A DNA stretch of 64,000 bases, from positions 62,001 through 126,000 of the forward strand of contig CALWSP010000025.1 in NCBI GenBank assembly GCA_944384235.1, in the 5' to 3' direction. Shown here one piece after another: positions 3,985 to 24,583 of the stretch. The notes beneath the pieces were generated by a model. That model was not told the DNA's origin, did no database searches, and was given only the letters and a program-made list of their open reading frames with translations. Both the position numbers and the translations under genes were made by a program. The first letter of the stretch is position 1; each line of letters opens with the position of its first letter. This stretch comes from an uncultured Clostridia bacterium (GTDB lineage Bacteria > Bacillota > Clostridia > Lachnospirales > CAG-274).

Positions 3985-5076
3985 ATGATATCAAATCAAA
4001 TATTACAAAGTACAATAGATGGTCTTAAAAATATTACAAGACGTGAACTTAGTGTTGCTGAAAGAGAGGGTAAAGTTGTAGCCACAACTGAAGAAGGAAA
4101 GTTAAACACTTTAATAGATAATGCCGATATTTTCATTTCAAGCCCAGCTGAAAACCAACTTGTTCAGGGCTACCAATACTTTAAAGTTTTTGACAATGGC
4201 TCAGCAGAATACATCGTCTTAATAAAAGGCGATGATGAAGAAACTTATAGAATTGGAAAAATGACAGCCTTCCAACTTCAAAACCTTCTTGTAGCCTATA
4301 AGGAAAGATATGATAGAGATAATTTTATCAAAAACCTCCTTTTAGATAATCTCTTGCTAGTTGACATTTATTCAAGAGCAAAAAAACTACACATTGAAAA
4401 TTCAGCAAGACGAATTGTCTACTTAATTGAAACAGAAATAGATAAAGACTTAAATGTTGTAGAAATAGTAAGAAGTATATTCCCAACAAAACAAAAAGAC
4501 TTTGTCACAGCAGTAAATGAAAAAAGTATCATCTTGGTTAAAGAGTTAAAAGAAAAAGATGGAAAAGAGGAAATTGAAAACATAGCAAAAAGCATCTACG
4601 ACACTTTAACAGCCGAAGCAATGACAAACATTTATGTTTCAATAGGTACAGCTGTTAATGATTTAAAAAATGTTTCTCTTTCCTATAAAGAAGCTAAACT
4701 TGCCCTTGAAGTTGGCAAAATTTTTGAAGAGAATAAATATGTAGTAAACTATGAGCAACTTGGAATAGGCAGGCTTATATATCAGCTAGATGGTTCTCTT
4801 TGCAAAATGTTTGTTAATGAAGTTCTTCACGGCATTTCAATTGACCAATTTGACGATGAAACACTAGCAACTGTAAATAAATTCTTTGAAAACAACCTTA
4901 ACGTTTCTGAAACATCTAGACAACTTTATATCCACAGAAACACTTTAGTTTATAGGCTAGATAAACTTCAGAAAATGACAGGCTTAGATTTAAGAAATTT
5001 TGATGATGCAATAATTTTCAAAATAATGCTTATGGTAAGCAAATATTTAAATTATAGAGAGAACTATGTTTATTAA
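3985..5076 (+). CDS. PucR/CdaR-type helix-turn-helix regulator
   Basis: A 363-residue cytoplasmic protein. The last 60 residues hold the PucR-family helix-turn-helix (VSETSRQLYIHRNTLVYRLDKL), which is diagnostic for the CdaR/PucR C-terminal domain. The middle part (about 150-280) looks like the GGDEF-related domain of the family (TNIYVSIGTAVNDLKNVSLS, then YKEAKLALE). The N-terminal 140 residues are not recognised and may be the sensor. The ATG at 3985 has a good GGGAGG Shine-Dalgarno. The gene lies just upstream of ftsE on the same strand, so it may be transcribed with the ftsEX module. The signal it senses cannot be read from the sequence. Confidence 0.85.
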   Translation: MISNQILQSTIDGLKNITRRELSVAEREGKVVATTEEGKLNTLIDNADIFISSPAENQLVQGYQYFKVFDNGSAEYIVLIKGDDEETYRIGKMTAFQLQNLLVAYKERYDRDNFIKNLLLDNLLLVDIYSRAKKLHIENSARRIVYLIETEIDKDLNVVEIVRSIFPTKQKDFVTAVNEKSIILVKELKEKDGKEEIENIAKSIYDTLTAEAMTNIYVSIGTAVNDLKNVSLSYKEAKLALEVGKIFEENKYVVNYEQLGIGRLIYQLDGSLCKMFVNEVLHGISIDQFDDETLATVNKFFENNLNVSETSRQLYIHRNTLVYRLDKLQKMTGLDLRNFDDAIIFKIMLMVSKYLNYRENYVY

Positions 5077-5112
5077 AAATTGTTCTCAAATAAGAAAGGA
5101 AGTTATCTCTAT

Positions 5113-5820
5113 ATGATAAAAATGGAGAATGTAACAAAAGTCTATGAAAATGGTGCTGTTGGTATGAGAGATACAACACTCCACATCAATAAAGGCGAGT
5201 TTGTTTTTGTTGTTGGTTCCTCTGGTTCAGGAAAGTCAACTTTTATGCGTCTTTTGTTAAAGGAAGTTGAACCAACTTCAGGCAAAATAATAATAAATGG
5301 AACAGACATTACAAAGCTAAAAAGAAGGCAAATTCCTTATTTAAGGCGAAAAATTGGCGTAGTCTTTCAAGACTTTAGGCTTTTGCCATCAAAAACAGTC
5401 TATGAAAATGTAGCCTTTGCAATGCAAGTAATCGAAACAAACCCAAAAATAATAAGAAGAAATGTTCCACAAATTTTAGCAATGGTAGGCCTAGGCAAAA
5501 AAGCAAATGCCTACCCAAACCAGCTCTCAGGCGGAGAGCAACAAAGAGTTGCCCTAGCAAGAGCAATAATAAATAGGCCACCTATCTTACTAGCAGATGA
5601 ACCTACTGGTAATTTAGACCCTGAAACAGCTTGGGAAATTATGGAACTTATACAAGAAATACACAGAAATGGAACAACAGTTGTAATTTCAACTCACGCT
5701 AAAGATATTGTAGATAAAATGCAAAAAAGAGTTGTAACAATAAATAAAGGTAGCGTGTTAAGAGATATAGAAGGTGGTGGATATAGCGATGAAGCTAAGA
5801 ACGTGGAAATACTTTATTAA
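5113..5820 (+). CDS. ftsE: cell division ATP-binding protein FtsE
   Basis: ABC-type ATPase of 235 residues that powers FtsX, coupling cytoplasmic ATP hydrolysis to activation of a cell-wall hydrolase outside the cell. Walker A (GSSGSGKST, residues 35-43), the signature [15 protein letters not shown], Walker B ([13 protein letters not shown]) and the switch histidine (VISTHAKD) are all present. The [16 protein letters not shown] stretch is typical of FtsE. The frame could be opened by TTG at 5080, but ATG 5113 has AAAGGAAG upstream and gives the usual FtsE N-terminus ([11 protein letters not shown]). The gene overlaps ftsX by about 32 bases, as is common for this pair. Confidence 0.96.
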
Positions 5821-14143: not shown

Positions 14144-15442
<1,299 letters not shown>

Positions 15443-15444
15443 CT

Positions 15445-15473
15445 ATAATAATCCTAAAAATATGTTATGTAAA
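15445..15473 (-). promoter_or_regulatory. possible obg promoter overlapping the leader hairpin
   Basis: On the minus strand, TTTACA (15473-15468), a 17-base spacer and TATTAT (15450-15445). The -35 box sits in the distal arm of the 73-nt inverted repeat. If real, the leader would be very short and the hairpin would not be part of this transcript. Confidence 0.4.
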
Positions 15474-15532
15474 CTCATATTCCACAATACTAGAAAATCT
15501 AAAATTCTGGAATATAAATTTTCATAACATAT
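15460..15532 (-). repeat. 73-nt near-perfect inverted repeat (candidate structured RNA) upstream of obg
   Basis: Arms of 35 bases (15460-15494 and 15498-15532) flank a 3-base loop. Outer pairs are ATATGTTATG with CATAACATAT, then ATATTCCA with TGGAATAT, then TAGA with TCTA. Read as minus-strand RNA, only three positions mismatch (A-A, G-G, U-U) and three are G-U wobbles. Read as plus-strand RNA, the same three wobbles become C-A mismatches. The hairpin begins one base after the T-run of the rpmA terminator. Confidence 0.75.
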
Positions 15533-15533
15533 T

Positions 15534-15563
15534 AAAAAACTGACCTAAAAAAGTTTAGGTCAG
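15534..15563 (-). terminator. terminator of the rplU-prp-rpmA operon
   Basis: On the minus strand, a 10-bp stem (CTGACCTAAA with TTTAGGTCAG) and a 4-base loop are followed by T6. It sits between rpmA and obg. Confidence 0.85.
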
Positions 15564-15583
15564 CCTAATTAGTTAATTATTAA

Positions 15584-15868
15584 TTACTCAGCTACTGGGT
15601 AAACAGAAACCTGCTTCTTGTCCCTACCCTTTCTCTCGTACTTAACTATACCGTCAACAAGAGCAAATAAAGTGTCATTGCCACCTCTACCTACGTTAAC
15701 ACCTGGGTGAATTTTAGTACCTCTCTGAGTATAAAGAATGTTGCCAGCCTTAACAATCTGACCGTCAGCTCTCTTAGCACCTAATCTCTTAGACTCAGAG
15801 TCACGACCGTTCTTAGTAGAACCAACACCCTTCTTATGAGCAAATAACTGAAGGTTAATTCTTAACAT
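15584..15868 (-). CDS. rpmA: 50S ribosomal protein L27 with cleavable N-terminus
   Basis: A 94-residue L27. The start MLRINLQLF precedes AHKKG, the true mature N-terminus. This is the Firmicutes-type extension that Prp removes after the Phe, so that the L27 tail can reach the peptidyl transferase centre. GTG 15871 also opens the frame, but ATG 15868 is at better spacing from AGGAGG. The body has the standard [17 protein letters not shown] motif. Order rplU-prp-rpmA is standard, and Prp is encoded 9 bases upstream. Confidence 0.97.
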
Positions 15869-15880
15869 CACTTACACCTC

Positions 15881-16500: not shown

Positions 16501-16582
16501 CCTTTGTACACCTCCTTAAACAAAACTCGCCGAATTTGGTGTGAAAAAAATCAACTTGTAAACCTTTTCGTGCGGCATAACA
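16501..16582 (-). ncRNA. L21 leader-like 5' UTR
   Basis: About 80 nt between the promoter and rplU. It contains CACGAAAAGG, TTCACACC, TTCGGCGAG and the GGAGGTGTAC Shine-Dalgarno. These pieces resemble the Firmicutes L21 leader, which is thought to mediate autoregulation by a ribosomal protein. The call rests on my memory of the motif and needs a covariance-model search. Confidence 0.6.
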
Positions 16583-16587
16583 AACAC

Positions 16588-24190: not shown

Positions 24191-24583
24191 ATGGAACTTT
24201 TTAAAAACATAGAAATTGACCCTATCAAATTAAATTCCCTTGCCCTAGCCTTTGTTGGCGACACAATTTTTGACCTTTTAACAAGAGGAATGATAGTTGC
24301 AGAGGGAAACTCCCCAGTAAATTTAATGCATAAAAAAGCAAAATCAATAGTAAATGCAACTTCACAATCAAAAATATATTCAAAAATAGAACCTTTTTTA
24401 ACTGACGAAGAGCTAGGTGTTTTAAAAAGAGGTAGAAATGCCAAAAGCAACACACAAGCTAAAAACCAGTCCATTGTGGACTATCGTAGAGCAACTGGTG
24501 TTGAAGCACTTTTTGGCTATTTGTACTTAAAAGGAAACTTTGATAGAATACAAGAACTTTATAAAATAGGATTAGAAGATTAA
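24191..24583 (+). CDS. mrnC: Mini-ribonuclease 3
   Basis: A 130-residue RNase III-like endonuclease without the dsRNA-binding domain, which matures 23S rRNA ends in Firmicutes. The signature NSLALAFVGDTIFDLLTRG holds the catalytic Asp, and the later GYLYLKGN helix closes the active site. I used ATG 24191, 6 bases after TAGGAG, over the in-frame 24161 that overlaps cysS. The cysS-mrnC-rlmB order is conserved in Clostridia and Bacilli. Confidence 0.93.
   Translation: MELFKNIEIDPIKLNSLALAFVGDTIFDLLTRGMIVAEGNSPVNLMHKKAKSIVNATSQSKIYSKIEPFLTDEELGVLKRGRNAKSNTQAKNQSIVDYRRATGVEALFGYLYLKGNFDRIQELYKIGLED

Follow-up and report, generated by a model that had tools for sequence, protein, structure and literature searches.

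Why does a long, nearly perfect hairpin lie between rpmA and obg in this uncultured Clostridia bacterium, and does it matter as RNA, as DNA, or not at all? We analyzed it within a window (the whole stretch of 64,000 nucleotides) and in related genomes, which we refer to by handles such as G004 where they need to be told apart. Unless another locus is named, coordinates are positions in the window.

A long hairpin upstream of obg

An inverted-repeat search and folding both confirmed the hairpin upstream of obg, at 15459-15533 on the minus strand. Read in the sense of obg, it has a 5' arm of 36 nt (15498-15533), an apical loop of 3 nt (15495-15497), and a 3' arm of 36 nt (15459-15494). Alignment with the orthologous hairpins of two relatives, G005 and G004, agrees with both arms; the apical part is not conserved in the orthologs. 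The original prediction had the 3-base loop right, but it gave the arms as 35 bases, which omits the outermost A-T pair. Its count of three mismatches and three G-U pairs on the minus strand stands: 30 of the 36 pairs are Watson-Crick, three are G-U, and the three mismatches are A-A, G-G, and T-T.

As RNA, the minus strand of the hairpin folds with a minimum free energy of -32.8 kcal/mol (z = -9.26) and the plus strand with -21.4 kcal/mol (z = -7.58), and for neither strand was any of 200 shuffles as good. As single-stranded DNA, one strand reaches -16.8 kcal/mol (z = -8.8) and the other -13.6 kcal/mol (z = -6.1). We also scanned 458 kb of this genome (the window and a further 394-kb sample) for ungapped palindromes. 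The hairpin ranks first among the 28 that are at or above the listing threshold, followed by a G+C-rich palindrome and then by terminator-like stems; first-order Markov resampling of the scanned 458 kb yielded no palindromes at that threshold. No second copy of the hairpin was found in its own genome: besides the hairpin's own two strands, the longest match was at most 34 bases. The hairpin is probably a local, modest gene-leader element that is real rather than due to chance.

The neighboring genes are those for L27 (rpmA), ObgE, and L21 (rplU), and all three are above the NCBIfam cutoffs. On the minus strand, rpmA (15584-15871) scores 129.2 bits against TIGR00062 (cutoff 90.35), and obg (14144-15427), which encodes the GTPase ObgE of 427 amino acids, scores 586.8 bits against NF008955 (cutoff 406). 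The gene order on this strand is rplU-prp-rpmA and then obg-yhbY, with prp assigned from sub-cutoff matches only. A terminator scan placed the stem of an intrinsic terminator for rpmA at 15537-15566 on the minus strand, with its T-run at 15539-15534, and similar terminators are present in the related spacers. The outermost pair of the hairpin abuts this T-run. On the other side, 31 bases (15428-15458, minus strand) separate the hairpin from the ATG of obg, and these include the ribosome-binding site, AGAAAGGGAG (15444-15435), as read from the sequence.

Pairing is maintained in three species of one genus

We located obg in all 7 genomes of the genus that we searched and in 45 of 48 genomes of the family. 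Of the six congeners, G005 and G004 have a hairpin that is orthologous to this one and likewise lies between rpmA and obg, so the element is carried by three of the seven genomes. Both spacers have an identical counterpart: the one in G005 matches "Candidatus Gallispira edinburgensis" (L018), and the one in G004 matches L035. A MAFFT alignment of the three spacers, made from sequence only, brings both arms into register: apart from gaps around the loop, the paired part is interrupted only by a gap of 2 bases in the 5' arm, opposite two extra bases of G004.

In a tree of obg, the window's genome joins G004 (support 88/93), and these two group with G005 and G003 (97/99), apart from G001, G002, and G006 (100/100). 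The three species of that sister clade have short spacers without the hairpin. G003, which belongs to the same clade as the window's genome, has a spacer of similar length; it does not match the hairpin model, and its fold is no better than shuffles. Outside the genus, none of the obg spacers matched the model in a search of the window and 29 loci, and across the 48 family genomes, only the three obg hairpins were found below an E value of 0.01. Similarly, at E ≤ 0.01, the G005 and G004 hairpins were each found only at their own locus among 7 genomes. In a DNA search across 61 genomes, short A+T-rich matches were numerous; among the matches listed, none outside the window's own genome covered the whole stem. 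One other match to the hairpin model, at 1108-1177 of L053 (30.9 bits), lies downstream of its obg and between convergent genes, and it looks like an ordinary terminator.

The arms have changed considerably: relative to the window's genome, 20 of 64 positions differ in G005 (31%) and 19 of 64 in G004 (30%). Under a null in which the same substitutions fall randomly on bases of the same kind, 16.0 of 32 Watson-Crick pairs would be retained in G005, and 15.0 in G004. The actual numbers are 23 of 32 (P = 0.0016) and 21 of 32 (P = 0.006). Pairs that changed on both sides are less striking when taken alone, with four in G005 (P = 0.04) and two in G004 (P = 0.24). In the three-row alignment, 87.9% of the cells are paired, as compared to 82.8% with shuffled partners, and 3 of 500 shuffles reached the observed value. 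Sliding the register gave at most 59.1%, in a control that favors the true register, as the reference structure comes from the window's own species. Six pairs are altered on both sides in this alignment, which 7 of 500 shuffles equaled; RNAalifold predicts 26 pairs, of which 5 changed on both sides. Finally, the arms seem to be constrained, because their divergence (31% and 30%) is below that of the third codon positions of obg, which differ from the window's genome by 52% in G005 and 44% in G004.

Compensatory changes in relatives had been proposed as a test, and pairing is indeed kept beyond what the substitution-matched null gives, across just three sequences with shared ancestry. Sequence comparison thus shows that three species share an orthologous stem that covaries. 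Bare folding of the whole spacers is less uniform: the hairpin in the G004 spacer is no more stable than in shuffles (z = -0.39; 161 of 500 were as good), and the G005 spacer folds better in the antisense direction (z = -5.0) than in the sense direction (z = -2.5).

Could such a pattern arise without selection? A chance quasipalindrome with no selected function could be maintained if template switching during replication repaired its arms against each other. This process is described for RNA hairpins in PMC8794818 and for quasipalindromes of Escherichia coli in PMC7202029, and according to the former, it can yield compensatory changes without selection, which makes it a serious alternative. 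Some of the changes are clustered, in favor of this idea: where the window's genome has C-G at the adjacent pairs 33/61 and 34/60, G005 has T-A at both, and pairs 28/66 and 30/64 are both altered in G004. The lack of a significant strand bias among the wobble pairs (see below) also fits. However, the other double changes affect isolated pairs, mismatches have persisted, and homogenization alone does not predict that the arms would be less diverged than the third positions of obg. Overall, we consider template switching a doubtful explanation, if one to be taken seriously.

RNA or DNA

The original prediction argued for selection on the RNA because the G-U pairs fit only the minus-strand transcript. 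With the orthologs included, this argument is not supported: wobble pairs in the sense and antisense directions number 3:0 in the window's genome, 3:3 in G005, and 3:2 in G004, or 9:5 over all three (one-sided binomial P = 0.21). By themselves, the three same-strand wobbles in the window's genome would arise by chance in 1 of 8 cases (one-sided). Two of these (alignment columns 25/69 and 27/67) probably arose in its own lineage, as both orthologs have T-A there. G-U asymmetry from one genome is thus weak evidence for RNA, and its significance was lost once two orthologs were added. When folded alone, the hairpin is more stable in the sense than in the antisense direction in all three species: besides the values given above for the window's genome, the orthologs have -19.5 versus -18.2 kcal/mol and -14.0 versus -6.7 kcal/mol. 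This is consistent with a role as RNA, but it is partly the same fact as the wobbles.

A promoter for obg had also been suggested at 15445-15473 on the minus strand (TTTACA-17-TATTAT), overlapping the hairpin. It matches at 10 of 12 positions, yet it is absent from G005, and it is absent at this place from G004, where the only sense promoter-like site near obg runs into the ATG. Judging from shuffles, 1.4 promoter-like sites with at least 9 of 12 matches are expected by chance in this region. As a general rule, transcription starts about seven bases past the -10 box, so RNA from the proposed promoter would start within the ribosome-binding site of obg. It is probably not the functional obg promoter, although the hairpin arm may contain a weak promoter.

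In all three species, the distance from the hairpin (measured from alignment column 83) to the ATG is 32-38 nt. Because the ribosome-binding site takes up part of this distance, a promoter that leaves that site within the transcript must either overlap the hairpin or lie upstream of it. The hairpin, then, is either part of the obg mRNA or overlapping the obg promoter.

The latter case would suit a palindrome that works at the level of DNA, as a cruciform or a protein site, and that overlaps and tunes the obg promoter. Besides the geometry, this idea fits the retention of Watson-Crick pairs, which do not significantly favor either strand, and the good folding of both strands as single-stranded DNA (z = -8.8 and -6.1). 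However, the arm has no conserved promoter match, with 10 of 12 positions in the window's genome, none in G005, and one ill-placed sense site in G004; the TTTACA/TATTAT match has the start-site problem described above; and arms of 36 bp far exceed the usual dimer site. A DNA-level element seems unlikely.

Possible read-through of the rpmA terminator

The geometry and the lack of a conserved promoter match favor transcripts that come from upstream through the terminator. Our preferred reading, to which we give a probability of roughly 0.4, is that the hairpin is a long duplex, specific to this lineage, which lies between rpmA and obg, is selected for its pairing, and acts in terminator read-through transcripts into obg. 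The hairpin would be transcribed by read-through of the rpmA terminator, which we infer because we saw no conserved promoter downstream and because there is no room for one that would leave the ribosome-binding site in the transcript without overlapping the hairpin. This RNA may be rare, since the rpmA terminator looks strong. More tentatively, the duplex might keep the abundant rpmA message apart from that of obg. A candidate route for this is double-strand cleavage by RNase III; alternatively, the duplex might shield the 5' region of obg against nucleases arriving from upstream. It would leave the ribosome-binding site untouched.

The original prediction placed one gene of the RNase III type (mrnC) in the window and expected another elsewhere, and we found one domain match at 24242-24535 and one on another contig. 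More broadly, PF00636 was above its cutoff in all 7 genomes of the genus, with two matches in the window's genome, which has both RNase III and Mini-III type genes. It is possible that the hairpin is an RNase III processing site. If it does act as RNA, it would be a small example of how a bacterium uncouples an essential GTPase gene from the genes for ribosomal proteins that precede it, and of a long stem that covariation has preserved within one genus.

Two kinds of known elements are similar. Intercistronic stems that are processed by RNase III are known from bacterial operons, and like them, the obg hairpin is a long imperfect duplex between genes in a genome with RNase III; it differs in that it lies behind a terminator, is very A+T-rich, and is lineage specific, and its cleavage is only predicted. 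Stem-loops that stabilize mRNAs from the 5' end are known in Firmicutes, and these also lie upstream of the ribosome-binding site and leave it uncovered. In those elements, the stem-loop marks the 5' end of an RNA, which for the obg hairpin is conjectural. Our PubMed Central searches gave no paper on terminator read-through or RNase III processing between rpmA and obg, and none on Gallispira; papers on rpmA and obg transcripts did not, judging by their titles and the opening of their abstracts, deal with this spacer.

Several other identities were rejected. The hairpin is not an intrinsic terminator: it has no G+C-rich base, no T-run follows it in G005 or G004, and the terminator scan reports the rpmA terminator only. 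It is not a recent multicopy MITE, as it occurs at one place only in its genome. Nor does it belong to a known Rfam family, as it matches only miRNA models, at 17-22 bits versus cutoffs of 86-139. The L21 leader (RF00559) is associated with the same gene cluster, but its place and structure are different; a match upstream of rplU (16513-16584, minus strand) scores 26.5 bits, which is under the gathering score of 36. By eye, the 5' arm might seem to encode a leader peptide, with ATG AAA ATT TAT.. in the window's genome and ATG AAG ATT TTT.. in G004, but G005 has ACG instead, and no ribosome-binding site precedes the ATG in the window's genome.

A dispersed repeat as a possible origin

The obg hairpin might instead be the relic of a palindromic repeat that is dispersed across the family, which was inserted before the window's genome, G004, and G005 diverged and was then decayed or domesticated. 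The covariance model built from the three hairpins matched repeat copies in other genera (E = 0.0154 in G030 and 0.123 in G008), and these copies have GGTTATGAG-type arms. A model of this repeat, which we call R2, has 126 matches in G030 and 105 in G008. The outer stem is of the GTTATGA type, in matching register, in both R2 and the obg hairpin, and their likeness is above that of stem-pair shuffles (P = 0.0098 for the window's genome, 0.00045 for G005, and 0.0004 for G004), although these P values are too favorable because the repeat was discovered by searching with these hairpins. Also, the obg hairpin of G004 is the sole match to R2 at E ≤ 1 in that genome (E = 0.218).

On the other hand, R2 has no match under E = 0.2 in the 7 genomes of the genus, and the best R2 match in both the window's genome and G005 lies elsewhere than obg. 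The obg site lacks the repeat's GTCAA end as well as its second and third stems, and the modeled R2 stem has 18 bp, as compared to 36 in the obg hairpin. The obg hairpin is also single copy, at an orthologous position, and has different ends, with no clear copies in the genus. We therefore view R2 as a possible origin of the hairpin, not as a family to which it belongs, and descent from the repeat as quite improbable. These ideas could also be combined: the hairpin might be one end of a dispersed palindromic element that was domesticated, so that it now processes or insulates the obg message and is preserved by compensatory change. We consider this very unlikely; if true, a mobile-element hairpin became the leader of an essential GTPase gene.

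R2 itself is a nonautonomous element with several inverted repeats and subfamilies, about 150-190 bp long in the copies that we compared. One end consists of GTCAA, a hairpin, and CATAACC(G/A)ACGG, followed by a ATTCAGTGGGAG-type stem and a AAGTAAGT..CCCCGC stem; example loci are L105, L111, L152, L160, and L156. In each of the carriers G030, G008, G011, G022, G034, G031, and G025, the model matches between 12 and 126 times, and R2 is apparently absent from the window's genus. Some of the carriers, but not all, have Y1 transposase genes.

Other features of the window's genome

The window's genome (G000) is small, with 1.75 Mb at 99% completeness as compared to 1.8-2.6 Mb in its congeners, and its branch in the obg tree (0.26) is longer than that of any other member of the genus. 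It also contains a G+C-rich palindrome (GGACAGGGGACGGTTCTCTGTC...) at 1675-1755 of L069 (contig C1), with a Y1-type transposase gene at 4795-5127 of the same contig. This pair looks like a REP-type hairpin with its transposase.
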